64,000 bases of DNA, taken from contig NZ_FAOZ01000017.1 in assembly GCF_001536285.1 (NCBI RefSeq), positions 62,001 to 126,000 of the forward strand. The letters are read 5' to 3'. Below the pieces are notes generated by a model. That model was not told the origin of the DNA, did no database searches, and saw nothing but the letters and a program-made list of their open reading frames with translations. Positions 14,994-58,556 of the stretch are shown here, in pieces. How positions within the stretch are numbered: the first letter of the stretch is position 1; each line of letters opens with the position of its first letter. The stretch comes from Parafrankia irregularis. GTDB taxonomy: Bacteria > Actinomycetota > Actinomycetes > Frankiales > Frankiaceae. The translations under genes and the position numbers were made by a program.

Positions 14994-15131
14994 CCGACCT
15001 GACCACCGCTGGCCCGGCCTGCCCCGCCGGCCGGAGCCAGGTCAGGGCAGAACACGCATCCGGGCGGCGGGGCGCCGCGCACAGGGCGCGGCACGCACCC
15101 GCCGTCCGATCAGGCAGGCACCACCGTCGGA

Positions 15132-16384: not shown

Positions 16385-17017
16385 ATGTTCGAGCGGCTGG
16401 GGCGGACGGTGTTCCGTCGCCGGTGGTGGGTGCTCGGCCTGGCCGGGGCGTTCTTCGTGTTCGGCGGTGTCTGGGGCACCCAGGTGTTCGGCGAGCTGAC
16501 CACGAGCGGCTTCGACGACCCGGCCAGTGAGAGCTCCCGGGCCCTCGAACGCGCCGAGGCGGCGCTCGGGCGAACCGGCAACGACCTCGTCGTGCTCTAC
16601 CGCAGCACGAGCATGACGGTCGACGACCCGGCCTACGAGCAGGCCGTGACCGAGAGGCTGGACGCGCTCCCCCACGACGTCGTGACCAGGACGATCACCT
16701 ACTGGGTCGTGATCGGACTGTTCTCGATCTCCGGCATCACGTTCATCAAGCTGATCGGCGTGGCGATGATCATCGCGATCGTGGTGGACGCGACGATCGT
16801 CCGGGCACTGCTCGTACCGGCCACCATGCGCCTGCTCGGCAACACGAACTGGTGGGCACCGGCGCCGCTGCGGCGTTTCCACGCCCGGCACGGCCTCCAC
16901 GAGACGCCGGAGGCGCCGGAAGCACCGAACGGCCCGTACCCATCGCCTGATCCGCCCGACCCGCCCGATCCGCGTCCCGCGCCGACGACCGGCACACAAT
17001 CCGACAGCGCGGCGTAA
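16385..17017 (+). CDS. Internally deleted MMPL-family transporter
   Basis: A 210-residue product made of the two ends of an MMPL/RND exporter joined in frame. Residues 1-100 match the family N-terminus: basic start, membrane helix WWVLGLAGAFFVFGGVWGTQ, then SSRALERAEAALGRTGNDLVVLY of the first periplasmic domain. From about residue 100 it switches to the last membrane helices (TYWVVIGLFSISGITFIKLI and IIAIVVDATIVRALLVPATM) and the family tail LLGNTNWWAPAPLRRFH. Normal members have more than 700 residues, so about 500 are missing, including nearly all transport helices. It is probably a non-functional deletion derivative. The ATG at 16385 follows GAGGGAGCAG. Confidence 0.8.
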   Translation: MFERLGRTVFRRRWWVLGLAGAFFVFGGVWGTQVFGELTTSGFDDPASESSRALERAEAALGRTGNDLVVLYRSTSMTVDDPAYEQAVTERLDALPHDVVTRTITYWVVIGLFSISGITFIKLIGVAMIIAIVVDATIVRALLVPATMRLLGNTNWWAPAPLRRFHARHGLHETPEAPEAPNGPYPSPDPPDPPDPRPAPTTGTQSDSAA

Positions 17018-17090
17018 CCACCCGAACATCGGGGACCGAAATATTAGGATTTCGCGGAGGACGCCGGGCGCGGCGTTCATCCCTTCGGGA

Positions 17091-20000: not shown

Positions 20001-20672
20001 GACCTGCAGCTGCTCTCGCCGGTGATGTTCGCGCTGAACACCGCGCTGCACGGGGACATCGAGCAGGCACGGCACCTGTTCGACAAGCTGGAGGCAGCCG
20101 CGGGCGACGACCCCTACGCGATCACGGTCTGGGCCGCCTTCGCCGTCACCGCGGCGGCACTTGCCGGCGACCCGCCCTGGGCACTGCGCGCGGCAGAGCG
20201 GGGAATCGCGGTGGACCCGGAGTTCTCCTACCTCTTCCTCGGCAGCTACCAGCGGCTGGCTCGCTGCTGGGCACGGGCCGTGACCGGCCATGACCCGGTC
20301 GGCGCGGCGAGCGAGGCACGCGAGGCTCAGCGGATCATCGACGCGGCGCTGCTCGACCCCCCGCGCTCGGGCCTGGCCACCTGGTACGGGCTGCTCGCCG
20401 AGATGTGGCTGGCGGCCGGGCTGCTGGCCGAGACCACCACCGCCCTCGACCGGGCCGAGCAGGTTCTCGACGCCTACGGCCAGCGCTACCCCGAGAGCCT
20501 GATCCTGCTGGTGCGAGCACAGCTGATGCAGGCATGCGACGAGCCCGCGGCCGACGTCCGGGCCATCGCCGAGCGTGCTCGCGCGCTGGCCATCGAACGC
20601 GAGGCCCATCTGTTCGCCCGCCGCGCCGACGAACTGCTCGCCGACCTGCCGCGGACGCCAGCCGGAACCTGA
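17091..20672 (+). CDS. SARP-family regulator with BTAD, AAA ATPase and TPR-like region (AfsR-like)
   Basis: A 1193-residue regulator. Residues 15-100 form an OmpR-type winged helix (ISTSELIDLIWGDD, VLQKYVGTLRRLL-like), 105-250 the bacterial transcriptional activation domain ending DLGIDPGPALR, then an Ala-rich linker with SAGAAT repeats. A STAND-like ATPase follows with Walker A GEPGAGKT (about 394) and Walker B VVIVVDDLQWAD (about 528). The C-terminal 500 residues are helical, TPR-like repeats. There is no C-terminal LuxR domain, so DNA binding is N-terminal. SARPs usually activate nearby secondary-metabolite or catabolic genes; no such large cluster lies beside it. The ATG at 17091 was chosen; GTG 17103 is possible. 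Confidence 0.88.
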   Translation: MGTGVAVRPSSGGQLCLQILGPLRIWRGGVELDAGPRQQAYLLALLLVRAGRPISTSELIDLIWGDDIPASAVNILQKYVGTLRRLLEPALPTRGAGSYLLRHGGGYLFAAGPGMLDAAAFRELVETARAGLAQQHHDVALDRYLEALALWHGPAGGGLAHGSGAMPVFAALDGEFFDACVAAAELAVARDQPARVLPPLRLAAGMAPLHEPVQASLIRALAAAGQQAAALSVFETVRSRLAEDLGIDPGPALRAAQLEVLGQPLPVAAASSAGAATSAGAATSAGGDGPAAPAAGRAAAAQPSAADAAPTAPTALQAAAADSAAPASTEPPALIGRTVPAFVEQPRPPAVGALGMPSSDGLIGRAEELTVLRHAVDSAFTGDAGLVLVEGEPGAGKTCLLEHGSSEASRRGALVVWGRCLEGDGTPSMWPWVQAVGTLLDELPPTARDEWLASELGRLVERRSATPAVPLPPDAPHSPDAPFAPDTTFPPDAPAMSDTVVLPNSGAQFRLFERAVALVSQAAARRPVVIVVDDLQWADLASLQMFSHLAARMPHGSAILGALRDRAPVPGSELARLLAAASRLPQHRRIRLGPFNPAEVAELVRIETGQTPGTDVTHSIHTRTAGNPFFVRELSRLLADGGDLTEEAAARAAVPSSVRDIVRDRMAGLDTGTRDLLQLAALIGRDVDFGLLTRAADLDVQTCIDRLEPLEALGLLEHQPADPFSYRFAHDLVRESVVRTTTPSRATRLHLRIADALECSGADSESIAERLAHHLWAAGPLADPARTADALERAGRRAAAKSAFDAAARQLVSAARVARTASLAELELSALSQLTAAVGMQSGYVGSAADLLERAEYLARLLGREREAADFLFSRWAANSQGIQLDRGGRLARQLLEEGEMSTDPVIRAYGRHAWGIHQWDVGNIGEAVRYLGQSSSTSSDGAAADGAAAGCAAADGAASPVREEDPLRHDLQLLSPVMFALNTALHGDIEQARHLFDKLEAAAGDDPYAITVWAAFAVTAAALAGDPPWALRAAERGIAVDPEFSYLFLGSYQRLARCWARAVTGHDPVGAASEAREAQRIIDAALLDPPRSGLATWYGLLAEMWLAAGLLAETTTALDRAEQVLDAYGQRYPESLILLVRAQLMQACDEPAADVRAIAERARALAIEREAHLFARRADELLADLPRTPAGT

Positions 20673-20728
20673 TCGACACCGCGGACCCCAGGTCCTACTC
20701 GGCAGCGGCGGCAGCGGCGGCGGCCTGA

Positions 20729-20776
20729 AGATCCGAGGATCCGAGGATCCGAGGATTTCGGTCGTTCCGGCGACCA
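20729..20776 (+). repeat. Partial dispersed palindromic repeat, copy E, with 8-base tandem units
   Basis: Three tandem copies of ATCCGAGG run into gatttcggtcgttccggcgacc, which equals the left arm and loop of the palindromic repeat family; the right arm is missing. As with three full copies, it lies between convergent genes. Confidence 0.55.
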
Positions 20777-20782
20777 CGGACC

Positions 20783-20995
20783 TCAGGTCCTGCCAGGCAG
20801 CAACCGAGAGCGCACGGCCCAGACGTGAAATCCCAGCCCGATTCCCCAGGCCACTATCGACCACAGCGGCCAGAAAAAGATGTCGGGAGTCAGCAGCGCC
20901 CACAGCACAATCTGCACCAGAACAATCACGACATAGGAGATGACATGGCTCCAAAGGCCCCACTTAACGGCCGCCGCGCTCTTGTTCGCCTTCAT
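20783..20995 (-). CDS. Small 2TM-domain membrane protein
   Basis: A 70-residue protein with two hydrophobic helices (SHVISYVVIVLVQIVLWALL and WPLWSIVAWGIGLGFHVWAV) joined by a short TPDIFF turn and ending in basic residues. This is the layout of the 2TM domain family, found alone or fused to sensor kinases. Function is unknown; it may be a membrane accessory or stress protein. It converges on the SARP gene. Confidence 0.75.
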   Translation of the reverse strand: MKANKSAAAVKWGLWSHVISYVVIVLVQIVLWALLTPDIFFWPLWSIVAWGIGLGFHVWAVRSRLLPGRT

Positions 20996-21180
20996 TGAAG
21001 CAGACTAGGTCAATGTACTTGATGAGAAGTTGACAGTCGCTCATACCCGCGCCAAAAACACCCGATCCTGTTCAGTGCCCGTCAAGTATCCCACCCTAGG
21101 CTGGCCGTCGGTCGCGACCAGGCAAAGAGGACGCGGTCGAGATTGACATACATCGACGGTTCCAGATCGAAGGATCTTCA

Positions 21181-22017
21181 TTGACGACGGCAACTCGCCG
21201 GACGCTGCTGGCCGGATCGGCCGCTGTCGCGACCGGCTCCGCATTCGCGGCCGGCTCGGTCCTCACTGCCAGCGCGGCGCTCGCAGCGTCCGCCGCGCAG
21301 GCACACACCCGCGGCGACGGCGGGCAGAAGCCCACCGTGGTCCTCGTGCACGGCGCGTTCGCCGACGCCTCCGGCTGGAACGACGTCGCCACCCGGCTGA
21401 TTCGCGACGGCTACCCGGTCATCGCCCCGCCGAACCCGCTGCGCGGCGTGGCCGCCGACTCCGCCTACCTGGCCAGCATCCTGGCCACCCTCGAGGGTCC
21501 GCTCGTCGTCGCCGCGCACTCCTACGGCGGGATCCTCGCCACGAACGCCGCGACCGGCAACGCGAACGTGAAAGCACTGGTCTACGTAGCCGCGTTCGCC
21601 CCCGACCAGGGCGAGACGCTGCTGGGCCTGCAGACGAAGTACCCCGGAAGCCGGCTCGACGAGTCCGCCCTGGACTTCCGTCCCCACGGTGACGGCGTCG
21701 ACGGGTACATCAGGAAGGAGGTCTTCCGGGACGTGTTCGCCGGCGACGTGCCGAAGGCGACCACCGATCTGATGTGGGCCGGCCAGCGGCCCGGTGACGT
21801 GCGCACGCTGCAGGAGCCGTCCGGCGCCCCGGCCTGGCGGAGCATTCCCTCCTGGTACCTCGTCGCCCGCGACGACAGGGTGCTGCCCGCCGCGGCGCAG
21901 CGGTTCATGGCCCAGCGGGCCGGTGCGCGCACCGTCGAGGTCGGTGCCTCGCACGTTGCGATGATCGCGCAGCCCGCCGCGACGGCCGACCTCATCAGAC
22001 GCGCCGCCGCGCGCTGA
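21181..22017 (+). CDS. Alpha/beta hydrolase with Tat-like signal
   Basis: A 278-residue hydrolase. The N-terminus TTATRRTLLAGSAAVATGSA is a twin-Arg-type signal followed by an Ala-rich h-region and likely cleavage near AQAHT, so the enzyme is probably exported folded. Catalytic features are VVLVHGAFADASG, the elbow AHSYGG (Ser nucleophile), the acid near VARDDRVLP and the His in GASHVAM. The TTG start has GAAGGAT upstream at good spacing. It is a paralogue of 15132-15830. The MFS gene follows after 22 bases and may share the transcript. Confidence 0.85.
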   Translation: MTTATRRTLLAGSAAVATGSAFAAGSVLTASAALAASAAQAHTRGDGGQKPTVVLVHGAFADASGWNDVATRLIRDGYPVIAPPNPLRGVAADSAYLASILATLEGPLVVAAHSYGGILATNAATGNANVKALVYVAAFAPDQGETLLGLQTKYPGSRLDESALDFRPHGDGVDGYIRKEVFRDVFAGDVPKATTDLMWAGQRPGDVRTLQEPSGAPAWRSIPSWYLVARDDRVLPAAAQRFMAQRAGARTVEVGASHVAMIAQPAATADLIRRAAAR

Positions 22018-22039
22018 CGCGCCCGCCGAGCCCGATCCC

Positions 22040-23281
22040 ATGCATAGACGCGCCTACAAAGCTCAGTGCACTGCCGAGGAGAATCGGCGCACCCCCGAGA
22101 GCCCATCTGTCGGCAATCCGAGGCTGGCATTGTTCGCGCTGGCGCTGGGCACCTTCGCGATCGGCACCGGCGAGTTCGGCAGCAATGGCGTCATCCAGTT
22201 GTTCGCCGCCGACCTGAACGTGTCGATTCCGGTCGCGACCTATGCGATCACCGCCTACGCCGTCGGGGTGATCATCGGTTCGCCGATGATCACCCTGTTC
22301 GCCGCCCGGGCCAACCGGCGCACTCTCCTGCTCGGCCTGATCGGGCTTTTCCTGATCGGTAACGGGCTTTCCGCGGTCGCACCGAACATCGCGCTGCTCG
22401 TCCTCTTCCGGTTCGTCGCCGGCAGCGTGCAGGGTGCGTTCTTCGGTGCCGGGGCGGTCGTCGCCGCCTACGTGTACGGCCCGGGGCGCGCCGGCTTGGC
22501 GTTCGCGACCGTGATGGGTGGGCTCACCGTCGCGACCATCGCCGGGTCGCCGCTGGGCACCCTCATCGGCCAGCACGCCGGCTGGCGGGCCCTGTACTGG
22601 ACGGTGGTTGCCGTCGGCCTGCTCGCCGGCACCGCCCTGGTCGCCTGGCTGCCCCGCACGGACGACCTGCGCGGCGGTTCCGTCGCGGACGAGCTGGCCG
22701 GCCTGCGCCGACGGGGCGTCTGGGTGATGGTCACCGTCGCGGCGCTGGGTATCTCCAGCATCTTCGCGGTCTACACGTTCATCGGCCCGTTCATCACCGA
22801 CGCGGCGCGACGCGACGAGTCCCTCATCCCGGTCGCACTGGCGATCTTCGGTCTCGGCATGGCCGTCGGCAACCACCTCGGCGGACGCATCGCGGACCGT
22901 TATGAGAACCGCGGCCTGCTCTGGGGCTACGGCGGCGTTCTGGTCTTCCTGACCCTGATCGGCGTGGCCGGCGACGACCTGGTGGTCCTGCTGCCGTGCC
23001 TGTTCGGCGTCGGTGCCACCATGATGGCCGCGATCCCCACCATCCAGGTCCGGCTGACCAGCTTCGCGCCGGACGCGCCGACGCTGATGGGCGCGCTCAA
23101 CCTGGCCGCCCTCAACCTGGCCAACTCGCTCGGCGCGATCGGCGGCGCGGTAGCCCTCGACGCCGGCTGGGGAACCCTCTCCACGGTCTGGGCCGGTTTC
23201 GCGCTCACCACGGCCGGGCTGTTCCTGTACGCCGCGACCGTCGCTCGGGCGAAGCCGGTACCGGTCCCGCGTTCCGCCTGA
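22040..23281 (+). CDS. MFS transporter, DHA1 (drug efflux) type
   Basis: A 413-residue exporter with about 12 membrane helices. Its start region FALALGTFAIGTGEFGSNGV is typical of the AraJ/CmlA/PurP branch of proton-driven drug and sugar exporters, and motif A-like loops appear at FAARANRRTLL and GGRIADRYENRG. The C-terminal helices keep the usual GGAVALDAGWG pattern. It lies 22 bases behind the exported hydrolase. The gene is followed by a strong hairpin terminator. Substrate unknown. Confidence 0.88.
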   Translation: MHRRAYKAQCTAEENRRTPESPSVGNPRLALFALALGTFAIGTGEFGSNGVIQLFAADLNVSIPVATYAITAYAVGVIIGSPMITLFAARANRRTLLLGLIGLFLIGNGLSAVAPNIALLVLFRFVAGSVQGAFFGAGAVVAAYVYGPGRAGLAFATVMGGLTVATIAGSPLGTLIGQHAGWRALYWTVVAVGLLAGTALVAWLPRTDDLRGGSVADELAGLRRRGVWVMVTVAALGISSIFAVYTFIGPFITDAARRDESLIPVALAIFGLGMAVGNHLGGRIADRYENRGLLWGYGGVLVFLTLIGVAGDDLVVLLPCLFGVGATMMAAIPTIQVRLTSFAPDAPTLMGALNLAALNLANSLGAIGGAVALDAGWGTLSTVWAGFALTTAGLFLYAATVARAKPVPVPRSA

Positions 23282-23322
23282 GCCTGCTCCGCCTCGACTC
23301 ACCCCTGCGCCCTGCGCACCCT

Positions 23323-23350
23323 GCGCCCCGGCTGTCGGCAGCCGGGGCGC
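23323..23350 (+). terminator. Hairpin terminator after the MFS gene
   Basis: Perfect 12-base-pair stem GCGCCCCGGCTG / CAGCCGGGGCGC with a four-base TCGG loop, 41 bases after the MFS stop. There is no long U tract, as is usual in such GC-rich genomes. Confidence 0.75.
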
Positions 23351-23504
23351 TTCCGCGTGCTCCCGCGACCGCTCGCGTAGACAGACGACTGGGTCAACTA
23401 TATTGTTCCGTCCGACGGCGGCCGGCATCACGCCGCCGGGATTCTTCGGCCCCACCGGGCCACAGGCCGCCGGGCCGATCGGTCTGACGGACAAGGAGCG
23501 GAGA

Positions 23505-24779
23505 ATGGTTGACGACTTAGCCCGCGACGGTGGGTCCGTCGAAGGCGGCACCGTCGGCGGCACCGCGGCCTCGGGTGGCGCCTATGGCGGAAGCATCGTC
23601 GAACTGATGACCATCGACGTCGCGAGGGATCCGAAGCCGACCTACCAGGCTCTGCGGGACGCCGGTCGGGCCCGACGGACGGTCGGCATGTTCGGCTCGG
23701 CGGTCATCGCCTCCGGGCGGCAGGCGGTCGACGAGATCTTCAGGTATCCGGAGGTCTACTCCTCCGCGGCGCATGCCGGCCGCCTCGGCAATGTGCGGCC
23801 CCTCATCCCGATCGAGTACGACCCGCCGGAGCAGCGCAAGTACCGCAAGCTCATCAATCCGATCTTCACCCCGCAGGCGATCGAACGGTGGGAGGAGCCG
23901 GTCCGGAAACTCGTCCACGACCTCATCGACGGTTTCGCCGGCGCCGAGGAGATCGACTTCTCCCGGCAGTTCTCGATTCCGCTGCCGTCCCAGATCTTCC
24001 TCACCCTGCTGGGGCTGCCGCTCGACGACCTCCCCACGTTCCTCCGGCTCAAGGACGGCATCGTCCGCCCGTCCGTGCTGCTCGACCTGCCGGTGAACCA
24101 TCCGGACGTCGCCGCGCTCAAGACGAGGACCGCGCAGGAGATCTACGCCTACTACGACAAGGTGCTCGACGAGCGGGAGCGGGAACCTCGGGACGACCTC
24201 CTGAGCCATCTGCTCTCGACCGAGGTCGACGGGGAGACGCTGACCCGCGAGGAGCTCCTCGACATCTGCTTCCTGTTCCTGACCGCCGGCCTCGACACCG
24301 TCTCCGCGTCCCTCGACACGTTCATGGCCTACCTCGCGGAGAACCCCGAGCGCCGCGCCGAGGTCGTCGCAGACCCCGGCAACATCGACAACGTCGTCGA
24401 GGAGCTGCTCCGGTGGGAGTCGCCGGTCATGCTCGTCTCCCGGGTCGCCATGGCTGACACCGATCTCGTCGGCTGCCCGGTGCACCGGGGCGACGAGATC
24501 TACGTGTACATCGGCTCGGCGAACCTCGACGAGGAGGAGCTCGCCGACGCCGGCGAGGTCCGTTTCGACCGCACGGCCAACCGCCACATCGCCTTCGGTG
24601 GCGGGGTACACCGCTGCCTCGGCTCCCATCTGGCCCGCATGGAGCTGCGCGTCGCGCTCCGTGAATGGCATGCACGTATCCCGCACTACCGGATCAGGCC
24701 GGGAACCCGGCTCGATTTCACGCCGGGTGTCCGGTCCATCGGCTCCTTCCCCATGCTGCTGGGAAAGGGCGACGACTGA
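23505..24779 (+). CDS. Cytochrome P450
   Basis: A 424-residue class I bacterial P450 monooxygenase. The oxygen-binding I helix reads LFLTAGLDTVSAS (about residue 258), the K-helix ExxR is EELLRW, and the heme loop is FGGGVHRCLGSHLA with the proximal Cys near residue 370. The ATG at 23505 has AAGGAG at the right distance; the open frame begins earlier at a TTG with no ribosome site. It is followed within 130 bases by an SDR and then two more catabolic genes, so it probably starts a degradative pathway by hydroxylation. No ferredoxin gene is adjacent, so redox partners must come from elsewhere. Substrate unknown. Confidence 0.92.
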   Translation: MVDDLARDGGSVEGGTVGGTAASGGAYGGSIVELMTIDVARDPKPTYQALRDAGRARRTVGMFGSAVIASGRQAVDEIFRYPEVYSSAAHAGRLGNVRPLIPIEYDPPEQRKYRKLINPIFTPQAIERWEEPVRKLVHDLIDGFAGAEEIDFSRQFSIPLPSQIFLTLLGLPLDDLPTFLRLKDGIVRPSVLLDLPVNHPDVAALKTRTAQEIYAYYDKVLDEREREPRDDLLSHLLSTEVDGETLTREELLDICFLFLTAGLDTVSASLDTFMAYLAENPERRAEVVADPGNIDNVVEELLRWESPVMLVSRVAMADTDLVGCPVHRGDEIYVYIGSANLDEEELADAGEVRFDRTANRHIAFGGGVHRCLGSHLARMELRVALREWHARIPHYRIRPGTRLDFTPGVRSIGSFPMLLGKGDD

Positions 24780-24904
24780 GCCCTTTCCGCCGTCGACCCC
24801 GGCCCGTGGCCACAGCGCTCGACAGACGTGCGACGGAAAAGGCTCGCCGAGGACGGCGCCGCCGTCCGAAACTCTCCCGGTACTGGCTGTGAGGAGGATT
24901 CACC

Positions 24905-25666
24905 ATTTCCGAGGGCGCCGCATTGCAGGGAAAGGTCGCGATCGTCACCGGCGCGGGCGGTGGTATCGGCAAGGCCTACGCGAAGGGACTGGCCGAGGCC
25001 GGTGCCGCGGTGGTCCTGGCCGACATCAACCTCGACAACGCCGATACCGCCGCGAAGGAACTGACCGCGGCCGGGCACCAGGCGTTCGCGGTGCGGGCCG
25101 ACGTCGCCGACGAGGCGAGCGTGAACGCCATGGCGTCCGCGGCGGCGGAACGCTTCGGGTCCGTGGACATCCTGGTGAACAACGCGGCGCTGATGGCCGA
25201 GGTCGTCGGACGGGGAACGCTCACCACGATGCCGCTGGACCTGTGGGAGCGCACGATGGCGGTGAACCTCACCGGCCCGCTGCTGTGCGTCCGCGCGGTG
25301 CTGCCCCACATGAAGGAACGGGGCTACGGGAAGATCGTGAACCAGTCGTCGGGCGGTGCGTTCATGGGTGCGAACGCCTACGGCATCTCCAAGCTGGGCG
25401 TGGTCAGTATGACCCTGTCGTTGGCCCGTGAGCTCGCGCCGTTCGGCATCCGGGTGAACGCCATCGCGCCGGGCTATGTCAACACCGAGGCCGGCGCGAT
25501 CGTCGCACCGCCGGCCGTGCGGGCGGTGATCGAGAAGTCGATCCCGTTCCCGTTCGGCGACCCCGAGGAGCTGGTCCCCGGCCTGCTCTACCTGGTCGGT
25601 CCCGGCAGCGACTGGGTGACCGGCCACACCCTCAACATCGACGGCGGCTGGATCCCCCGCACCTGA
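24905..25666 (+). CDS. SDR-family NAD(P)-dependent oxidoreductase
   Basis: A classical short-chain dehydrogenase: cofactor loop VTGAGGGIGKAY, structural NNAA, catalytic Ser in NQSSGG, YxxxK as YGISK, and the closing NIDGGWIPRT. It probably oxidises an alcohol made by the P450. The only good ribosome site, GAGGAGG (24891-24897), sits eight bases before an in-frame ATT at 24905, whereas the first usual start (TTG at 24923) is 25 bases away; I therefore prefer the rare ATT start (253 residues), with TTG (247 residues) as the alternative. The gene belongs to the P450-amidohydrolase cluster. Confidence 0.88.
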   Translation: MSEGAALQGKVAIVTGAGGGIGKAYAKGLAEAGAAVVLADINLDNADTAAKELTAAGHQAFAVRADVADEASVNAMASAAAERFGSVDILVNNAALMAEVVGRGTLTTMPLDLWERTMAVNLTGPLLCVRAVLPHMKERGYGKIVNQSSGGAFMGANAYGISKLGVVSMTLSLARELAPFGIRVNAIAPGYVNTEAGAIVAPPAVRAVIEKSIPFPFGDPEELVPGLLYLVGPGSDWVTGHTLNIDGGWIPRT

Positions 25667-25733
25667 CGCATCACCCACACCCACACCCACACCCGCACCC
25701 GTGTCCGCAGCCGAGCCGAGAAACGAGGAGATC

Positions 25734-26081
25734 GTGGCGACCGAGCAGCTCCCCCGCTGGATCCTGCACATCGAGTCGAGTCCGGTGAACCGGGATCCGG
25801 AGACATTGGCCGAGTTCAACCGCTGGTACGACGAGGAGCACGTTCCGGAGATGGTCGCGTTCGAGGGCTATCTCTCGGGTCGACGGCTTGAGCCGGTCGG
25901 CGACGACGGCCCGTACATCGCGCAGTACGTGATCGAGGGAGATCCGGAGGTGATCCTCGATCGGGTGAAGGCCGCCTCGGCCGCCGGTGAGCTGAAGATG
26001 TCCGAGACCCTGCAGATGAACCCGACCCCGAAGATGCGCCTCATGCGGGTCTCGTTCGAATACGAGAAGCCGAGGAGATAG
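25734..26081 (+). CDS. Small dimeric alpha/beta-barrel protein (EthD/DUF4286-like)
   Basis: A 115-residue protein. The FNRWYDEEHVPEMVAFEGYLSG segment is the hallmark of small ferredoxin-like dimeric barrels (EthD, DUF4286 and related), which act as accessory enzymes or isomerases in degradation of aromatics and ethers. The GTG at 25734 is preceded by GAGGAG with short spacing; an earlier in-frame GTG at 25701 would add 11 residues but follows only a CCCACA microsatellite (about 25671-25700). The amidohydrolase starts four bases after its stop, so they are almost surely co-translated. Confidence 0.75.
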   Translation: MATEQLPRWILHIESSPVNRDPETLAEFNRWYDEEHVPEMVAFEGYLSGRRLEPVGDDGPYIAQYVIEGDPEVILDRVKAASAAGELKMSETLQMNPTPKMRLMRVSFEYEKPRR

Positions 26082-26085
26082 TGCC

Positions 26086-27390
26086 ATGAATCTCGACGAC
26101 ATGATTCTGGTCAGTGTCGACGACCACGTCATAGAGCCGCCGGACATGTTCGTCGGCCGGCTCCCGAAGAAGTATGAGGAAGACGCACCCCAGCTGGTGC
26201 ACCGTGACGACGGGACCGATGTCTGGAAGTTCCGTGACACGGTGATCCCGAACGCCGCGCTCAATGCGATCGCCGGTCGACCCAAGGAGGAGTACGGCCT
26301 CGAGCCGCAGGGCCTCGACGAAATCCGCCCCGGCTGCTACGACGTGCACGAACGAGTGAAGGACATGAACGCTGGCGGCCTGCTGGCCCAGATGAACTTC
26401 CCGTCATTCCCGGGCTTCGCCGGCCGACTGTTCGTCACCGAGGACGTCGACTTCTCGCTGGCGCTGGTGCGGGCGTACAACGACTGGCACGTCGAAGGCT
26501 GGTGCGCCGCCTATCCGGGCCGGTTCATCCCGATGACGATCCCGGTGATCTGGGACGCCCAGCTGTGCGCGGCCGAGGTCCGCCGCAACGCCGCGCGCGG
26601 CGTCCACTCGCTGACGTTCAGCGAGAACCCCGCCGTCATGGGCATGCCGAGCTTTCACGACGAGTTCTGGAACCCGCTGTGGGAGGCACTGTGCGACACG
26701 AACACAGTGCTGTCGATCCACATCGGCTCGTCCGGGCGGATCGCCGTGCCAGCGGTCGACTCACCGCCCGACGTCATGATCACGCTGCAGCCGATGAACA
26801 TCGTCTCGGCCGCGGCGGACCTTCTGTGGTCCCGGGTCCTCAAGGACTTTCCGGGGCTGCGGATCGCGCTGTCCGAGGGCGGCACGGGCTGGATCCCGTA
26901 CTTCCTGGAGCGGGCCGACAGGACGTTCGAGACGCACGCCACCTGGACCATGCAGGACTTCGGCGGCAGGAAACCGTCGGAGGTCTTCCGTGAGCATTTC
27001 CTGACCTGCTTCATCACCGACTCGCTGGGGGTCGGGCTGCGGCACGAGATCGGCATCGACAACATCACCTGGGAGTGCGACTACCCGCACAGCGACTCGG
27101 CCTGGCCGACCGCTCCCGAGGGGCTGTGGGCCGATTTCCAGAAGTGGAACGTCCCGGCCGACGAGATCAACAAGATCACGTACGAGAACGCCATGCGCTG
27201 GTACTCGTTCGATCCCTTCGCGCATATCAGGAAGGAGGACGCGACCGTCGGCGCGCTGCGCCGGGCGGCCGAGGGGCACGACATCAGCGTCCAGCCGCGC
27301 AGCCATCAGATCGTCCAGCCGCAGGACAAGCTCGAGCAGTTCCGCCAGCGCGCCCGGGCCGCCGTCGCCGGAGCCACCACGGGTCGGTAG
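26086..27390 (+). CDS. Amidohydrolase-2 family metal-dependent hydrolase
   Basis: A 434-residue TIM-barrel hydrolase of the amidohydrolase_2 (decarboxylase/ACMSD-like) group. The N-terminus has the metal-binding VDDHVIEPP (the first His is replaced by Asp, as in many relatives), and the C-terminal part has WECDYPHSDSAWP, whose Asp and His complete the site. Members perform decarboxylation or C-C and C-N bond hydrolysis. Placed last in the P450-SDR-EthD-like cluster, it may cleave a ring-opened or hydroxylated product. The ATG is close behind the previous gene. The exact reaction is unknown. Confidence 0.85.
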   Translation: MNLDDMILVSVDDHVIEPPDMFVGRLPKKYEEDAPQLVHRDDGTDVWKFRDTVIPNAALNAIAGRPKEEYGLEPQGLDEIRPGCYDVHERVKDMNAGGLLAQMNFPSFPGFAGRLFVTEDVDFSLALVRAYNDWHVEGWCAAYPGRFIPMTIPVIWDAQLCAAEVRRNAARGVHSLTFSENPAVMGMPSFHDEFWNPLWEALCDTNTVLSIHIGSSGRIAVPAVDSPPDVMITLQPMNIVSAAADLLWSRVLKDFPGLRIALSEGGTGWIPYFLERADRTFETHATWTMQDFGGRKPSEVFREHFLTCFITDSLGVGLRHEIGIDNITWECDYPHSDSAWPTAPEGLWADFQKWNVPADEINKITYENAMRWYSFDPFAHIRKEDATVGALRRAAEGHDISVQPRSHQIVQPQDKLEQFRQRARAAVAGATTGR

Positions 27391-30189: not shown

Positions 30190-32919
30190 GTGACGGCCGC
30201 CAGGTTCGGTAAACCGGGGACCGGAGGCCGCGAGGTCCCCAGCATGGGCTGTGTGGACAAACAGGCGGAACCGGAACCGGAACCGGCACCGGCACCGGCA
30301 CCGGCACCGGCACCGCAACCGAAGCCGGAACCGGCGGCGGCCCGGTCGGGCGGGGCGTCGCCGGGGATCGTCGCGCCGTACCTGTTCGGCCCGGACGACC
30401 TGGCGGCGCCGCGGCTGGACACCGGGGTCCGCCGGACTCTGGACGACTACTACCGCTGGCGTGACCGCAACCCGGACCGGGTCGCCGAACATGTGAACGC
30501 CTGCACCCGTGAGCTGGAACGCGTCGCCGACCGCCACCGCCGCCACCACCTCGTCCGCGCACCGCAGGCCCTGGTGCCGGAGCGGTGGTCGACGCGGCCG
30601 TCCGCGCGCCGGCGCGCCGACGAACGGGAGCGGCTGACCCACGAGGTGAACTACTTCGCCGTCTACAACCTCGCCGAGGTGCCCTCCGCCGAGGTCATGG
30701 CATGCATCGTCAACGGGACGCACGTCCGCCTGCCCAGTGCGCGCCGCATCGTCGCGGACATCGACGAGCGGCATGGAGTTCACGGCGTGGCCCGGTCACT
30801 CGTACGCCACCTGCCCGAGCTCGACCGGGTCCCGGAGGTCGACTGGCTCACCGAACGGCTGAACCGGCTTCAGCACGCGCTGCCCGAGGATGTCGTCGCG
30901 GCCGGGGCGATGGGCAAGGTGGTGCGGACGCTCGCAGGGGTGCTGGCCATCGGCGCCTACGACACCCTGGACGCGGACCAGCCTGTCCGCGTCGCCCACC
31001 TGACCCGGCTGCTGGCCGCCGGCTACGCCTACGGTGCGGCGTACGCGATCGTCGACGACTCGTTCCACGACGTGCCACACGACCGGCTCCCCTCGTCCGA
31101 CCGCGAGCGCTACCACCGGCTGCTGACCCACGCCCTGGCCACCGGGGAGGACGTCGACAGCGCCACCCTGCCCGACCATCCGCTCGCTGAGGAACTGTGC
31201 GGCCTCTACGACCTGATGCGTACGCACTATCCCTTCGACCGACACCGGAATCTCTACCGCGCCGCCCAGGCCATGTATCTGGCCCAGGACCGCGACGCCG
31301 CCCGCACCGCGGACGACGTCCGCGCCCAGGGGATACGCGTCCTGTATCCGGACATCTTCATCAAGGCTGGCATGAGCCGGATCGTGGCGAACATTCTGGG
31401 CCGCCGCGAGCTGCCGGACGGTTTCTACACGCGGGCCCTGCTCCTGAAGTTCCTCAGCCAGTTCAGCGACGACCTGCGGGACGTCGAACAGGACACGGCG
31501 GCCGGCCGGCTGACCCCGTTCACCGCGCCGCCGGAGGTGACCGACAGCGATCCGTTGTACGACCTTTTCGCCTACCGGGCCTATGTCGCCGCCGAGGTGT
31601 TCCAGGCCGATCCGGGGGTTTGCGACGCGCTCGAGCATTTCGGCGCCGGCAAGTTCGCCGAGTACTTCGCCGCCGATCCGGCTCGTGCCGCCCGGCTCCT
31701 GCGCCGCTACGACGTCACCGCCGAGATCGCCCGGTTCCTGCGCACCGCGACCGGCCTGCGGGCCTCCGCTGTGCGTGCGCTGGAGACGAGCGACACCCGG
31801 CTGCGGCTACGCAGCGAGCAGATCCTGAGCCGGCGGGATCCTTCGGCTGTCGACGTCCGTACCTTCACCGCCGACCGGCTCGGCCACATCAACCGCATCG
31901 TGCGCCGAGCCAACCAGCCCGCGAGCACCGGTCAGCCCGGCGGCCCAGGTCAGCCAGGCGGTACCAGCCAGCCGAGCGTTACCAGCCAGCCGAGCGTTAC
32001 CAGCCAGCCGAGCGGTACCAGTCAGCCAGGCGATACCAGCCAACCCTCCGACACACGCGAGCCCACCGACACACGCGAGCCCACCGACACCGGCCAGCCC
32101 GCCGAGGCGCCACCCCACGACCTGGACGCCATCCGGGCCTACGCGCTCGGCGGGCATGCCAAGCGGCTACGCCCCGTGCTCACCCTCATGCTGGCCGAGG
32201 GGCTGCGGGTGCCGACCGGCGCCATCGAGCCTCTCCTGGTGGCGTCGGAGCTGTTCCACACCGCCAGCCTCCTGCTCGACGACCTGCCCGCCCAGGACGA
32301 CGCGACGACCCGGCGCGGACGGCCCACCGCGCACCGGGTCTTCGACGAGGGCAGCGTGCAGCTCGCCGCCGTGTCGATGATCTCCTCGGGGTTCGGTCAG
32401 CTCGCCCGCCTTCACGAGCACTTCCCGCCGGTGCGGGTCGTCGAGGTCGTCGCCTACGCCGGCTCCACCCTCGGCCCCGAGCGCCTGTGCCGCGGCCAGA
32501 ACCTGGATCTGCATCTCGCCCGCCGTGCCGACGACCGCCCGATCACCGGCACGGACATCCTGGAGATGTACCGGCTGAAGAGCTCGACGTCGATCGAGGC
32601 GGCGCTGGTCCCGCTGATGATGCTGCTGGGCCGGTCGGATCGGGAGATCGGCCTGGTCGAGCGGTACGCCCGCCACGCCGGCATCGTCTTCCAGATCCGC
32701 GACGACCTGCTCGACCTCACCGCCACCGACGCCCTGCTCGGCAAGGACACCGGCCACGACACCGACAAGGTCAACGCCGTACGCGCCTTCGGCCGGGCGG
32801 AGGCGGAGCGGCTCATGCACCACCACCTCACCGAGGCCGTCGGGGCCTGCGCCGACCTGCGGTTCGACACCCGCCTGCTCGAGGCCATGGCCCACCACTT
32901 CGCCACCCGCCGCCGCTGA
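30190..32919 (+). CDS. Two-domain isoprenoid synthase: class I synthase-like domain fused to polyprenyl synthetase
   Basis: A 909-residue protein. The C-terminal domain (about 640-905) is a trans-prenyl diphosphate synthase with DDLPAQD as first aspartate-rich motif, FQIRDDLLDL as the second and RPVLTLM before them. The N-terminal domain (about 60-560) also looks like an all-helical class I isoprenoid enzyme, with VDDSFHD and FSDDLRDVEQD as possible metal-binding motifs. They are joined by a TSQP-rich tandem-repeat linker. The first 40 residues contain EPEP/APAP repeats. GTG 30190 lacks a clear ribosome site; ATG 30244 (MGCVDK) is a plausible start. It may make and then use a prenyl diphosphate; the product is unknown. 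Confidence 0.8.
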   Translation: MTAARFGKPGTGGREVPSMGCVDKQAEPEPEPAPAPAPAPAPQPKPEPAAARSGGASPGIVAPYLFGPDDLAAPRLDTGVRRTLDDYYRWRDRNPDRVAEHVNACTRELERVADRHRRHHLVRAPQALVPERWSTRPSARRRADERERLTHEVNYFAVYNLAEVPSAEVMACIVNGTHVRLPSARRIVADIDERHGVHGVARSLVRHLPELDRVPEVDWLTERLNRLQHALPEDVVAAGAMGKVVRTLAGVLAIGAYDTLDADQPVRVAHLTRLLAAGYAYGAAYAIVDDSFHDVPHDRLPSSDRERYHRLLTHALATGEDVDSATLPDHPLAEELCGLYDLMRTHYPFDRHRNLYRAAQAMYLAQDRDAARTADDVRAQGIRVLYPDIFIKAGMSRIVANILGRRELPDGFYTRALLLKFLSQFSDDLRDVEQDTAAGRLTPFTAPPEVTDSDPLYDLFAYRAYVAAEVFQADPGVCDALEHFGAGKFAEYFAADPARAARLLRRYDVTAEIARFLRTATGLRASAVRALETSDTRLRLRSEQILSRRDPSAVDVRTFTADRLGHINRIVRRANQPASTGQPGGPGQPGGTSQPSVTSQPSVTSQPSGTSQPGDTSQPSDTREPTDTREPTDTGQPAEAPPHDLDAIRAYALGGHAKRLRPVLTLMLAEGLRVPTGAIEPLLVASELFHTASLLLDDLPAQDDATTRRGRPTAHRVFDEGSVQLAAVSMISSGFGQLARLHEHFPPVRVVEVVAYAGSTLGPERLCRGQNLDLHLARRADDRPITGTDILEMYRLKSSTSIEAALVPLMMLLGRSDREIGLVERYARHAGIVFQIRDDLLDLTATDALLGKDTGHDTDKVNAVRAFGRAEAERLMHHHLTEAVGACADLRFDTRLLEAMAHHFATRRR

Positions 32920-39407: not shown

Positions 39408-40286
39408 GTGACGACGAACCTGCCGGGCACGCCGGACTTCCCGCAGACGGCTCCCCCGCCCCTGGCGCCGCCCGCTGGTTGGCCAGCTGACGATCTCCCG
39501 CTGAGCCGGGAGGACCTGCAACGGTTCCGGACGGCGCTGGCAGCCGTGGCGCCGGACCGGACGTCGGCGGAGATGCTGCTCGGCGAGATCGACGTCCCGC
39601 GGACACGCCTGCCGTCGTTCCACAGCACCCCGGAGCACGCCTGGTTCGAGGTTTTCCAGACGCTTGAGGCCGGAGTGGTCGCCCAGCCCTGCCGGCGCCT
39701 GCTGGCGGCTGTCCTCGTCCGCTACCCGGCCAATCGCGTCTTCCTCGATCTTCACGACCGCCATGTGGCCGGGCGGCGAGCGGACGCCACCGGGTCACGA
39801 CCCGTCCCGGCCGGGGCGTCCACACCGCTGCCAGCGCCGACGCCGTCCCCGCCGACGGTGTTCCTGTCGCATGACCGGGCGGACCAGGGCAAGGTCCAGG
39901 CGTTGGCCAACCTGCTGACGGACGCAGGCCTCACCCCGTGGCTCGGGTCCGAGCAGGTGACCGGAGGCTCTCGGCGGGATCTGGCCGTTCGCCGGGCGGT
40001 GCTGGACTGCGACTTCTTCGTGCCGTGCCTGTCAGCCACCGCGCTGGCCCGGCCCAGCCAGCTCCACCGGGAGATCAGGATCGCGCTCGATCACGCGGAC
40101 GAACTCCCCGACCACGAGGTGTTCATCGTGCCCGCACGGCTCGACGAGTGCGACCCCCCATCGGCTCTACAGGAGTACCGGTGGGTCGACCTGTTCACGG
40201 CGGATGGGTTCCGTCAACTGACCCGGGCACTGCGCGCGCCGACACCGAGCGCCCGCAACAGGCGTTCCGGGCCGTCGGGCCGGTAG
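39408..40286 (+). CDS. EAD1-TIR domain protein (putative immune effector)
   Basis: A 292-residue protein. Residues about 30-120 (LSREDLQRFRTALAAVAP onwards, with the W-V-x-x-L and YPANRVFLDL pattern) resemble effector-associated domain 1, a death-like adaptor of bacterial conflict systems. Residues about 143-275 are a TIR domain: VFLSHDRADQGKVQALANLL, GLTPWLGSEQVTGG and QLHREIRIAL, where E222 aligns with the catalytic Glu of NAD-cleaving TIRs such as SARM1 (WVHKEIVTAL). It would destroy NAD+ when recruited. Its last 73 bases overlap the end of the opposite-strand TIR gene. The EAD1 call is from pattern memory. Confidence 0.72.
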   Translation: MTTNLPGTPDFPQTAPPPLAPPAGWPADDLPLSREDLQRFRTALAAVAPDRTSAEMLLGEIDVPRTRLPSFHSTPEHAWFEVFQTLEAGVVAQPCRRLLAAVLVRYPANRVFLDLHDRHVAGRRADATGSRPVPAGASTPLPAPTPSPPTVFLSHDRADQGKVQALANLLTDAGLTPWLGSEQVTGGSRRDLAVRRAVLDCDFFVPCLSATALARPSQLHREIRIALDHADELPDHEVFIVPARLDECDPPSALQEYRWVDLFTADGFRQLTRALRAPTPSARNRRSGPSGR

Positions 40287-41737
40287 AACCGAACCGGTTC
40301 GAGATGGTCGAGCCGGACGGGCAGCGCGCAGTGCTCGTCCAGCAGGACCGGTATGACGAAGATCCGGCCTTCCGGCATCTCCTCGGCCACGTCGAGTGCC
40401 AGGCGGAGCTGCCGATGCAGATCCCCGGCCCGGTCGACGGATCTCGTGGACAGGCACACCAGGACGAAGCCGCTCTGCCGGATCGTCCGCCGCATCTCGA
40501 GCCGGCGATCCGCCCCTGCGAGCAGATCGACGTTCGCCCGCCACGGGTGGAGACCCGCCAGCGTCAGGTGCCCTTCGACGAGACTGGCCGCCCGCTCGTC
40601 GGACTCGTCGTGGGCGATGACCACGGTGAAGGGAGCGCCGACGCCTTCGGCCGCCGCCCGGCGCCGAAGCGGCCCGTCGAACAGCGGGCGGCGGCCAGCG
40701 GCCTCGTGCGGCAACCGGAACACGGCCGCGGTCTCGGTCAGGTCGGCGATCTCCGTGAGGAAGCGCTCCCCCGAGGCCATGGTGCCCGGCGGGACACCCA
40801 GGTCATAGGTGCGGTTCAGCCAGTCGAGGCTCATAGTCGTGATGTTGGTCCATGCTGTGTGCAGCTCGTCGCCCAGCGGGCGGGCGACCGCCGCCCCGCC
40901 GGCGAAACCGGTGCCCGCCACCGCCGGAGTGATGGCCGCGGCAGCCCGCTCGCCCAGGTCCGAGCCGATCGGCGCGGCGGACGCCAGTGAGATCCGGACG
41001 CGAAAGACCTGGTCCACGTAGCGGCGCACCGCCGCTTCGTACAGCGGCCGCGCCGCCACGGCGAACTGGTCCGCGGGGAACGGCCGCGGACTCACCGGCG
41101 ACGTGGCGTCCCGGGAGAGGGCGGCGTACTGGCCGGCCAGTGTCGTCAACGCCGCCTTCTCGCCCGGCTTCAGCCGGTACGGCTCGATACAGACGCCCAG
41201 CAGCGTGCCTTCCGGCCTGGCCAGCAGCTGTTCCCAGACCGCCTGCCAGTCGCCGCCGCCGGTGTAGGGCGAGACGGCGACACACACCCTGCGCTCCGCC
41301 CGCCGCGACCAGGACCAGGCGACAGCCTTGCGGATCTCGACCATTCCCTCGCCGCACGGGTGCAGTGGAGCAAGCAGGTACGCGACCGCGGCCGGGTCGA
41401 GCACCGGCGTGACGCGGACATGGGCCGGCGCGCCGGCCAGCCGGTCCCGCAGCGTCAGTGCCCGGCGGACGGCGGAGCGCCGGTCAAGGTCGTAGGTCTG
41501 CGCGAGCAGAACACAGGTCAGCCACTCCGAGCCCGGGAAGGCTATGTACCGGACCTCGAAACGCATGGGGCCGGCGACATCCCACAGCCCGGCCAGCCAC
41601 ACCTGTTCCGCCGCAGCCGCCTCTGCGGCGCCGACCCCCACCGGCCTGACCGGCTCGACCTCCGCGGCGGCCCAGGCCCAGTGGCCACCCGCGGCGCCGG
41701 AGACCACGTGGACGCCGTCATCTCGTCCGGTAGTCAT
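40214..41737 (-). CDS. TIR-domain protein with unassigned N-terminal region
   Basis: A 507-residue protein. The C-terminal 135 residues form a TIR domain: FTVVIAHDESDERAASLVEG, GLHPWRANVDLLAGADRR and DLHRQLRLALDVAEEM. At the catalytic position the residue is Gln443, not Glu, so this TIR may be a scaffold. The N-terminal 360 residues lack motifs I know. The ATG at 41737 (MTTGRDDG) lies 20 bases inside the end of the upstream membrane-protein gene, so they form an operon. Its 3' end overlaps the plus-strand EAD1-TIR gene by 73 bases, meaning the two mRNAs can pair. A role in a conflict system is inferred. Confidence 0.72.
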   Translation of the reverse strand: MTTGRDDGVHVVSGAAGGHWAWAAAEVEPVRPVGVGAAEAAAAEQVWLAGLWDVAGPMRFEVRYIAFPGSEWLTCVLLAQTYDLDRRSAVRRALTLRDRLAGAPAHVRVTPVLDPAAVAYLLAPLHPCGEGMVEIRKAVAWSWSRRAERRVCVAVSPYTGGGDWQAVWEQLLARPEGTLLGVCIEPYRLKPGEKAALTTLAGQYAALSRDATSPVSPRPFPADQFAVAARPLYEAAVRRYVDQVFRVRISLASAAPIGSDLGERAAAAITPAVAGTGFAGGAAVARPLGDELHTAWTNITTMSLDWLNRTYDLGVPPGTMASGERFLTEIADLTETAAVFRLPHEAAGRRPLFDGPLRRRAAAEGVGAPFTVVIAHDESDERAASLVEGHLTLAGLHPWRANVDLLAGADRRLEMRRTIRQSGFVLVCLSTRSVDRAGDLHRQLRLALDVAEEMPEGRIFVIPVLLDEHCALPVRLDHLEPVRFYRPDGPERLLRALGVGARSARVS

Positions 41738-42893
41738 CGCCGTCGTTCCCGCGACCGAACACGTTGCCGGTATCCGGCCCGGCCGGGGCGCTCGGCGGCC
41801 AGCTGGAGGCACGCTCGAAAGCCCACCCGGGCCCGCCTTCCGGTACCTCGCTCGGAGGCTGGGACGGAGGCGGCGGGAACGGCGGCGGTGGGAAGGCCTG
41901 CTGGTCAGCCGTGACGGGATCATGCTGCGGCAGCGGAGCGTACGTCGCCGCCTGGTGTGATGTGCCCGGCCAGCTCGGCCCCGACTGGTGGGCCTGCTGT
42001 GACGGTCGAGGCGCCGGCTGGACCAGAGGCGGCTGGACGAGAGGCGGCTGGAAGGGCGACGGTGCCATGCTCGGCGCCGTCGGAATGCCGCTGCGTTCCT
42101 GCGGGTGCGGGAAGCCGAACTCGAGCGGCACGTCGCGCTGCTCGTAGGCGACGAACAGCCCTTCCCGGCAGGCGGCGTGCACAGCCTCCCGCATGGCCCG
42201 TGGGCGCTCGGTGCGCAGCATGCGCAGTTCGGGACTGATGCGCCCGAGCACGCCAGCGAGGAGATCGGAATAGAACTGCCAGATCAACTGCCCGCCGCGG
42301 CGCGAGCGCCACATCATCCAGCCGAGATACAGGCTCGTGCCGTAGGCGAAGACCGAGACGTATGTGACGTAGAAGTTCTCCTGCAGCACGAGACGGTAGC
42401 GCACACCGTCACGCGGCGAACCGGTTTCGAACGGCCTCACCTCAAGACCGATCGGCATCCTGCGCATCCGAAGCGCGCCGGCGATCTGACTGTAGGTGGA
42501 CGCCGCGCTGTCGGCCCGGTCAGCGAGAAGAACCCGCCATTCCGCGACCGGCTCGGGAACACGCATTCCCAGCAGCACCACAGCGAAGCTGACAACGGAA
42601 ACCAGCGCTCCGAAGAGCATGAGGCCCGCGGCCGTGCTCTCGCTGCCAGCAACCGCCACGAACACCGCGAAAGCAAGGAAGATCAGGTAGATAATTGCGC
42701 TCGCGACGGCGGCGTTCAGCCCCATCCATACCAGCACCCGAACGCTCACGCTCTCGTCCAGAGCGGTTTCGACATCGCCATACCTGAGCGTCTTGTCGAG
42801 ATATGCGACGTCAGAATTGCCGCCGTCCCAGCCTGGGACCGGCACCGCCCACCGTGGCGGCACATCCGACTGCGAACCCTGCTGATCGACCAT
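41718..42893 (-). CDS. Membrane protein with Pro-rich tail, partner of the TIR gene
   Basis: A 391-residue protein. Two close membrane helices (VLVWMGLNAAVASAIIYLIF and the segment around LMLFGALVSVVSFAVVLLGM) are followed by a cytoplasmic domain, another hydrophobic stretch (FYVTYVSVFAYGTSLYLGWM) and a 110-residue Pro/Gln/Ser-rich disordered tail. I do not recognise the family. The ATG at 42893 (MVDQQG) is chosen; the stop overlaps the TIR gene by 20 bases. It could anchor or sense for the TIR protein. No enzymatic motif is visible. Confidence 0.65.
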   Translation of the reverse strand: MVDQQGSQSDVPPRWAVPVPGWDGGNSDVAYLDKTLRYGDVETALDESVSVRVLVWMGLNAAVASAIIYLIFLAFAVFVAVAGSESTAAGLMLFGALVSVVSFAVVLLGMRVPEPVAEWRVLLADRADSAASTYSQIAGALRMRRMPIGLEVRPFETGSPRDGVRYRLVLQENFYVTYVSVFAYGTSLYLGWMMWRSRRGGQLIWQFYSDLLAGVLGRISPELRMLRTERPRAMREAVHAACREGLFVAYEQRDVPLEFGFPHPQERSGIPTAPSMAPSPFQPPLVQPPLVQPAPRPSQQAHQSGPSWPGTSHQAATYAPLPQHDPVTADQQAFPPPPFPPPPSQPPSEVPEGGPGWAFERASSWPPSAPAGPDTGNVFGRGNDGDDYRTR

Positions 42894-56962: not shown

Positions 56963-57031
56963 TCGGCGCGGGCGCGAAATCGCCCGTTGGAGCGGCCGAC
57001 GGGCCCGAGCATCCCAGGAAGGGACGCGAAA

Positions 57032-58459: not shown

Positions 58460-58556
58460 CGGCCCGCGCAGGGCTCACTGATGGCGGTGGCCCGGCCCGA
58501 CCCCACGGGACGGGCCACCGCGACCGGTCCGACGACGAGAAAACGAAGAGAAACCC

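Follow-up and report, generated by a model that had tools for sequence, protein, structure and literature searches.

A candidate bacterial fusion of a class I isoprenoid-synthase-like domain with a prenyl diphosphate synthase in Parafrankia irregularis

Layout of the locus and the encoded protein

The 64,000-nucleotide stretch of Parafrankia irregularis DNA analysed here (contig NZ_FAOZ01000017.1, positions 62,001 to 126,000; hereafter, the window), from an actinobacterial relative of root-nodule Frankia, contains at 30190-32919 on the forward strand an open reading frame (ORF) that is uninterrupted over 909 codons and joins an N-terminal domain of no known family to a C-terminal trans-prenyl diphosphate synthase. 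Based on the sequence comparisons and structure models described below, we read its product as a bacterial chimera in which the C-terminal half would make geranylgeranyl diphosphate (GGPP), or farnesyl diphosphate (FPP), and a non-canonical class I half would ionise and probably cyclise it, a reading to which we assign a probability of roughly 55%.

The GC content of the ORF per codon position (0.76/0.50/0.90) is typical of coding genes in this genome. The frame gives 909 amino acids (aa) from the GTG at 30190, where a clear ribosome-binding site is absent, and the ATG at 30244 (residue 19) has GAGG 8 nt upstream; hence, the ATG appears to be the likelier start and the protein may be 891 aa long. 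All the features that follow lie on the forward strand. A Pro/Glu/Ala-rich low-complexity extension (30268-30333), shorter in the orthologue of Parafrankia sp. EUN1f, leads into the N-terminal domain (N-domain; residues 57-572; 30358-31905), which is tied by a linker of variable length (about residues 573-640; 31906-32109) to the synthase domain (C-domain; residues 641-909; 32110-32916). The N-domain bears a first Asp motif, DDSFHD (residues 289-294; 31054-31071), and a second one, DDLRDVEQD (residues 427-435; 31468-31494), with a K392-R397 segment (31363-31380) between them, while the C-domain bears KRLRP (residues 658-662; 32161-32175), a first Asp motif, DDLPAQD (residues 697-703; 32278-32298), and a second Asp motif, DDLLD (residues 838-842; 32701-32715). 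An 18-bp tandem repeat encoding TSQP-like units makes up the linker, which is of another length in the EUN1f orthologue.

The initial annotation of this DNA, made from the letters and translations, had proposed a fusion to a prenyl diphosphate synthase, with Asp-rich motifs in both halves and a TSQP repeat linker between them, and each of these elements was recovered: the halves form one ORF with a C-terminal PF00348 domain, the linker is in place, and the motifs stand at residues 288-294 (VDDSFHD), 425-435 (FSDDLRDVEQD), 697-703 (DDLPAQD) and 836-843 (IRDDLLDL). The ratio of nonsynonymous to synonymous substitution rates (dN/dS) between the window and EUN1f copies is 0.18 over the N-domain, with 0.17 over the C-domain and, therefore, both halves appear to be constrained.

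The C-terminal prenyl diphosphate synthase

Sequence comparison provides solid grounds for identifying the C-domain as a complete trans-prenyl diphosphate synthase. It matches PF00348 at an E value of 9e-37 (127 bits, against a curated cut-off of 27), aligns over nearly its full length with solved GGPP and FPP synthases (about 1e-30), and has both Asp-rich motifs as well as KRLRP. Among the matches listed, it falls under the cut-off of each NCBIfam prenyl-synthase model, including the FPP-synthase model (1.3e-43; 145 of 275 bits) and the CrtE model (126 of 460 bits). A match to the encapsulin cargo model f2_encap_cargo4 (90 of 450 bits) was set aside as general prenyl-synthase similarity. That is, the C-domain is like the bacterial GGPP and FPP synthases (PF00348; CrtE, IspA) in motifs and in being about full length, but unlike them in being fused and in remaining under the NCBIfam cut-offs. 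The Ala that lies five residues ahead of the first Asp motif in the C-domain is small, which by the usual chain-length rule for these enzymes suggests GGPP, possibly FPP, as the product.

Motifs and predicted fold of the N-terminal domain

The two N-domain motifs are 138 residues apart, compared to 141 residues in the C-domain. The first has the DDxx(x)D/E pattern (DDSFHD in the window and EUN1f, DDCLHD in G507, a genome of another family whose N-domain is 48% identical to that of the window), and the G507 homologue retains the motif pair as a whole. When the residue order of the N-domain was shuffled 20,000 times, 177 of the shuffles produced a pair of the same kind, defined as DDxx(x)[DE] followed 120-160 residues on by [ND]Dxx[STGD]xxx[ED], and therefore the pair by itself represents an event of about 1%.

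An AlphaFold2 (AF2) run on the whole N-domain with two near-identical sequences gave a predicted local distance difference test score (pLDDT) of 39.4 and was not used. With seven sequences and the core of the domain (30604-31782), the best model reached a pLDDT of 68.5 and a predicted template-modelling score (pTM) of 0.68, with pLDDT blocks of 84 and 63 around the first motif. In this model, a 30-residue helix terminates in the first motif, model residues 274-299 form the helix that contains the second, and a helix between the two carries K392 and R397. The class I fold is laid out as two long motif-bearing helices with further helices between them, and the model matches this arrangement.

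Consistent with such a fold, a Foldseek comparison with the PDB gave 174 matches at E up to 10, and of the 50 listed, all but one (TMEM175) are terpene or prenyl diphosphate synthases, i.e., 49 of 50. All 50 matches listed by VIA-align are isoprenoid synthases, with the best Z of 10.8 to 5eat and a Z of 10.7 over 259 residues to the class IB synthase 5yo8. Those listed mix plant sesquiterpene synthases (11 of the matches are tobacco 5-epi-aristolochene synthase), BjKS, class IB enzymes (5yo8, 6loo) and FPP synthases. The SVS_A2 and TPT3 structures were counted as isoprenoid synthases on our assumption from the entry names. The Sat1646 structure was counted as one according to PMC11234867. Helical models can score a Z of 13 through common arrangement alone, as the tool itself warns, and the VIA-align list is a re-examination of Foldseek's own matches; since the values obtained lie within the range of helical models, we place weight on the uniformity of the list and not on Z. 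Taken together, the models suggest that the N-domain probably adopts an all-helical, class I isoprenoid-synthase-like fold.

Homologues and motif-poor copies

The N-domain was found in seven genomes and in all seven (7/7) a synthase-type domain follows in the same frame; a stand-alone N-domain was met in none of the genomes searched. The carriers are the source genome and EUN1f in one family, and G507 (genus g82) together with G348, G474, G480 and G495 (all genus g40) in another. EUN1f, which is 94% identical over the full length, is the only named relative found; the lowest N-domain identity to the window among the homologues is 35%. Within the source organism's own genus, two of the six genomes carry the domain.

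These counts come from overlapping genome samples, and few candidates were scored per genome in most profile searches, so that weaker relatives may be missed. N-domain searches of 58 relatives gave four matches, two of them true. Profile searches returned three genomes under 1e-5 among 393 of the class (the source genome, EUN1f and G348), one match, the source genome itself, among 296 genomes of the phylum, four matches among 200 genomes of G507's order, two among 35 genomes of the own order and none among 297 genomes of the family of G051. A full-length profile run on 341 genomes of G348's family at E up to 1e-20 matched seven, five of them with the N-domain; the synthase-only matches in G396 and G421 were set aside as ordinary synthases. 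Plasmid records gave no match, and no relative was present among 34 candidate stretches of viral contigs. Two of the matches among the 58 relatives, in G050 (3.7e-5) and G056 (1.3e-4), were judged to be chance, as short stretches within a beta-lactamase-like frame or a frame without the motif pair. Of the 25 class genomes (out of 393) with matches at E up to 0.1, 22 were dropped, the best of these at 1.2e-4 (G050, the only one of the 22 inspected). The G507 homologue (L102, 2242-8514) has a phage-type integrase and a gene for a TOTE-type primase/helicase in its vicinity, which suggests that its surroundings are a mobile region.

The seven copies fall into motif-bearing and motif-poor ones. The N-domains of the window, EUN1f and G507 proteins have DDxxHD as well as DDL[RK]DxE[QE]D, and these three proteins also keep the synthase motifs (DDLPAQDN and DDVLD in EUN1f). 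In the four g40 copies, D290-R299 (10 residues) are deleted in frame and D289 remains; at the second N-domain motif, D427 is replaced by His, and D431 by Asn in two of the four, with D428 and D435 remaining. In the synthase domain of the same copies, the stretches of both Asp motifs and the K-R of KRLRP are lost. The polar residues common to the three motif-bearing copies and missing in the four others include D290, H293, D294, K392, R397 and D427, among 39 listed; K392 and R397 are invariant in the former and altered in the latter.

The g40 frames (L011, L031, L032 and L033, in G348, G495, G474 and G480, respectively) nevertheless stay open (708-718 aa), and their pairwise dN/dS is 0.52-0.66 in the N-domain and 0.34-0.47 in the C-domain, being below 1 in six of six pairs for each domain. 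By these ratios, constraint on the g40 copies is relaxed, yet some of it remains. In all three g40 genomes assessed for this (G348, G474 and G480), the gene is a neighbour of ftsK, which runs on the opposite strand, and rimO- and pgsA-like genes are located further out; a RodZ-like gene was seen in between in G348 and G480 (Pfam was run on ftsK, rimO and pgsA of G348 and on the RodZ gene of G480; the other neighbours were assigned by likeness). From the residues lost, the g40 copies are probable pseudoenzymes without most of the metal-binding residues of both domains.

These copies also bear on whether the N-domain is a catalyst at all. It might instead be a non-catalytic domain that regulates the prenyl synthase, sets its chain length or acts as a scaffold; the loss of most of the first N-domain motif in four of seven copies, in frames that remain open at an N-domain dN/dS of 0.52-0.66, fits such a role, as does the placement of the domain in no known enzyme family. 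However, the same four copies are also without the synthase motifs, and thus are probably dead overall, whereas each of the three copies whose synthase is intact retains K392 and R397 along with the two N-domain motifs, and the dN/dS of the window pair is as low as 0.18. Hence, we consider a purely non-catalytic N-domain to be improbable.

Family assignment of the N-terminal domain and the balance of evidence

Direct family searches place the N-domain outside the recognised groups. When the seven N-domains were scanned at E up to 5 with filters on, no isoprenoid family was among the matches. A profile search of the PDB with the seven N-domains gave four matches to E 10, the best of which, a C-type lectin neck repeat (0.0096), was judged to be chance, its stretches alone giving 1.9 and 11. 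The class IB motifs DYLDNLxD and DY(F,L,W)IDxxED are absent, in the form given in PMC7839719, from the window and G507, without a PF10776 match; of the class ID motifs D(N/D), ND and RXXKD (PMC11234867), RXXKD and ND are absent from both as well. No 19-residue Kyte-Doolittle window exceeds 1.6 in the N-domains of the window and G507 (2 sequences), unlike in a UbiA prenyltransferase with its transmembrane helices. DUF2600 sequences, sought for direct comparison, were met in none of 198 genomes of the phylum. Since the N-domain lacks the full motif sets that define canonical class I, class IB and class ID synthases, we file it under none of these, but it may work like them.

Profile-profile comparison (hhalign) was performed with a three-sequence profile (the motif-bearing N-domains) and a seven-sequence profile (all N-domains) against 13 of 16 squalene/phytoene synthase (SQS/PSY) stretches (three did not fit the selection pattern), 14 prenyl synthases and, for the three-sequence profile, 17 PF19086 synthases. 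As a yardstick, SQS/PSY was matched to the same prenyl synthases, with which it has a common fold, at P 0.0015, and PF19086 was linked neither to SQS/PSY nor to a 15-sequence prenyl-synthase set. The comparison thus has little power in this setting, and we read little into a missing match.

The clearest profile match was that of the three-sequence profile to SQS/PSY (score 26.9, P 0.009, not reached in sets of 60 and 100 column shuffles), which places the second N-domain motif, SDDLRDVEQDTAAGRL, against NFLRDVGEDLRRGRV. Accordingly, the N-domain could be a head-to-head condensing enzyme like squalene or phytoene synthase, and the chimera would then convert its own FPP or GGPP into a C30 or C40 hydrocarbon. 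We hold this to be unlikely because DDSFHD is of the terpene-synthase type and the first Asp position of the DxxxD of phytoene synthase is not Asp (by eye), the N-domain has no PF00494 (squalene/phytoene synthase) match, and the structure matches listed are mostly terpene synthases, with no squalene or phytoene synthase by title among them. The match also has a probability of only 4.4% over 38 columns around the second motif, and the score of the seven-sequence profile, 22.5, was reached by 2 of 60 shuffles.

Alternatively, the N-domain could be an isoprenoid-fold prenyltransferase acting on another acceptor (a second elongation, or an aromatic or other acceptor) and not a cyclase. The FPP synthases 4k10, 2i19 and 8wd5 are among the structure matches listed, the FIKAG ahead of the second motif is, by eye, reminiscent of the K-T/S segment found in prenyl synthases, and the seven-sequence profile aligns second motif on second motif with the 14 prenyl synthases over 12 columns (score 20.1, reached by 2 of 200 shuffles: 0/60 and 2/140). 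The three-sequence profile scored 20.5 (5 of 200 shuffles: 0/60 and 5/140). We count this marginal prenyl-synthase match as weak support. However, the hhalign probability is 0.6-0.8%, neither the window nor the G507 N-domain has K[RK]xRP, PF00348 does not match the N-domain, and the top structure matches are terpene synthases, and we therefore give a transferase of this kind little credence.

Several of the results also weigh against our preferred reading of a class I half that ionises and cyclises the product of its neighbour. On the structural side, the other four AF2 models average a pLDDT of 57-63, and the helix of the second motif is low in confidence (blocks of 52 and 44); no Foldseek E value is significant (none below 0.001, the best 0.19 at a probability of 0.98); the template-modelling scores are at most 0.45 and the root-mean-square deviations at least 8.5 among the matches listed, 16 of these 50 matches being one enzyme, epi-isozizaene synthase; and the VIA-align Z values are under the value of about 13 advised for helical models. 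On the sequence side, the N-domain (residues 57-572, alone or as the seven-sequence set) has no credible Pfam, NCBIfam or PDB sequence match; NSE/DTE is absent from the window and G507, with DDxxDxxxD in its place, as is WxxxxxRY; the three-sequence profile shows no link to the 17 PF19086 synthases (score reached by 27 of 100 shuffles), and its prenyl-synthase match is not collinear, pairing the N-domain's first motif with the second one of the synthases; and the limits given above for the SQS/PSY match, in probability, length and shuffles of the seven-sequence score, count here as well. In addition, Met occupies the chain-length position in both solved GGPP and FPP synthases, no terpene-tailoring neighbour is kept in EUN1f, and the persistence of the motif-poor copies means that catalysis is not the only possible role. 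The initial proposal that the N-terminal half is a class I isoprenoid enzyme thus stands in part: the fold prediction, the placement of helices and motifs and the weak profile matches favour it, and the moderate model confidence, the lack of a place in any terpene-synthase family of the libraries and the departure of the second motif from NSE/DTE do not; the contrary outcome, an N-terminal half without the isoprenoid synthase fold, was not obtained in structure prediction.

Genomic neighbourhood

A Ser/Thr kinase gene ends 42 bp upstream of the chimera and is kept in EUN1f; downstream come two genes on the other strand, for a STAS protein and for an anti-sigma-type ATPase, and then a GDSL lipase. 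Genes for a major facilitator superfamily (MFS) transporter, a cytochrome P450 and a short-chain dehydrogenase/reductase (22.0-25.7 kb) end 4.5-7 kb upstream. We rejected a link between these three and the chimera, since the EUN1f locus can be aligned with 15.0-27.3 kb only at 23105-23656. We see no convincing terpene cluster around the chimera. Elsewhere in the source genome there are three PF00494 and three PF00348 matches, the chimera among the latter, and PF19086 matches at one place only, C7:36673-38532, outside the window. The PF19086 locus, presumably a two-domain, geosmin-synthase-like gene, appears as separate fragments, one match containing an internal TAA, and could be a broken gene or reflect a sequencing error.

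Other features of the window are noted here. The segment of about 12 kb at 15009-27301 represents an insertion or replacement relative to EUN1f, with only the short stretch mentioned above aligning. The segment at 8611-14368 on the reverse strand, which encodes an AAA_11/AAA_12 helicase and two neighbours (the gene at 12893-14368, also on the reverse strand, has no Pfam match), is aligned in EUN1f and is possibly a defence island. A 569-aa TIR-domain protein is encoded at 40214-41923 (reverse strand), a sulfatase with a formylglycine-generating enzyme close behind at 56987-59486 (forward strand), and two TauD-type dioxygenases at 925-1860 and 48665-49612.

Relation to known systems and proposed model

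In the fungal prenyltransferase-terpene synthase chimeras (PTTS; PaFS and relatives), the terpene-synthase-type domain is N-terminal. The window protein shares with them the single polypeptide and the C-terminal trans-prenyl synthase, but differs in being bacterial and in having an N-domain without a family match or NSE/DTE. The likeness to fungal chimeric terpene synthases that had been drawn at the outset therefore holds for domain order and for nothing beyond it, the terpene-synthase nature of the N-domain being a prediction, and nothing here supports a common origin with the fungal chimeras. According to PMC8307374, PTTS occur only in fungi, where they are about 700 aa long, and no bacterial chimera of this type was recognised among the papers listed by a literature search covering titles and the starts of abstracts, mostly outside subscription journals.

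The non-canonical class I synthases (IB, i.e., BalTS/YtpB, ID, IE and IF; PMC11234867 and PMC7839719) likewise have a class I-like fold without recognisable sequence, as the model suggests for the N-domain. The second motif (DDLRDVEQD in the window, DDLKDREED in G507) resembles the class IB pattern DYxIDxxED, and the class IB structures 5yo8 and 6loo are among the top structure matches to the N-domain. Unlike in the window, no fused prenyl synthase was noticed for the non-canonical classes in the text consulted of the two sources (PMC11234867, PMC7839719). PeuTPS, a non-canonical synthase, resembles the chimera in not lying near terpene genes (PMC11234867). EutB, in which a bacterial diterpene cyclase is joined to a truncated HMBPP (4-hydroxy-3-methylbut-2-enyl diphosphate) reductase, is, going by PMC11574762, similarly an actinobacterial cyclase-type protein fused to an isoprenoid-pathway domain; however, its partner is a reductase without most catalytic residues and its cyclase has canonical motifs.

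Under the model that we favour, the C-domain would condense isopentenyl diphosphate with an allylic diphosphate to GGPP, possibly FPP. The N-domain, with DDxxxD and DDxxDxxxD holding Mg2+, would then remove the diphosphate group of the prenyl product supplied by the C-domain and yield a terpene, most likely cyclic, with the repeat linker acting as a flexible tether holding the two active sites together in a single molecule. The overall product would be a diterpene or sesquiterpene built from C5 units. In one related genus, a protein without most of the metal-binding residues persists as a probable pseudoenzyme. A bolder version, which we offer as tentative and hold at somewhat less than even odds, is that this is the first bacterial one-protein terpene factory, i.e., a new non-canonical class I class met only fused to its own synthase and independent of the fungal chimeras, with the related clade representing a doubly inactivated pseudoenzyme fixed beside ftsK.

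If the model is true, it would suggest that the assembly-line layout arose more than once, a terpene-synthase class invisible to sequence-based mining would be added to those known, and a bacterial chimera would become available for work on substrate channelling. The motif-poor relatives, in turn, represent a natural variant set pointing to the residues that matter.

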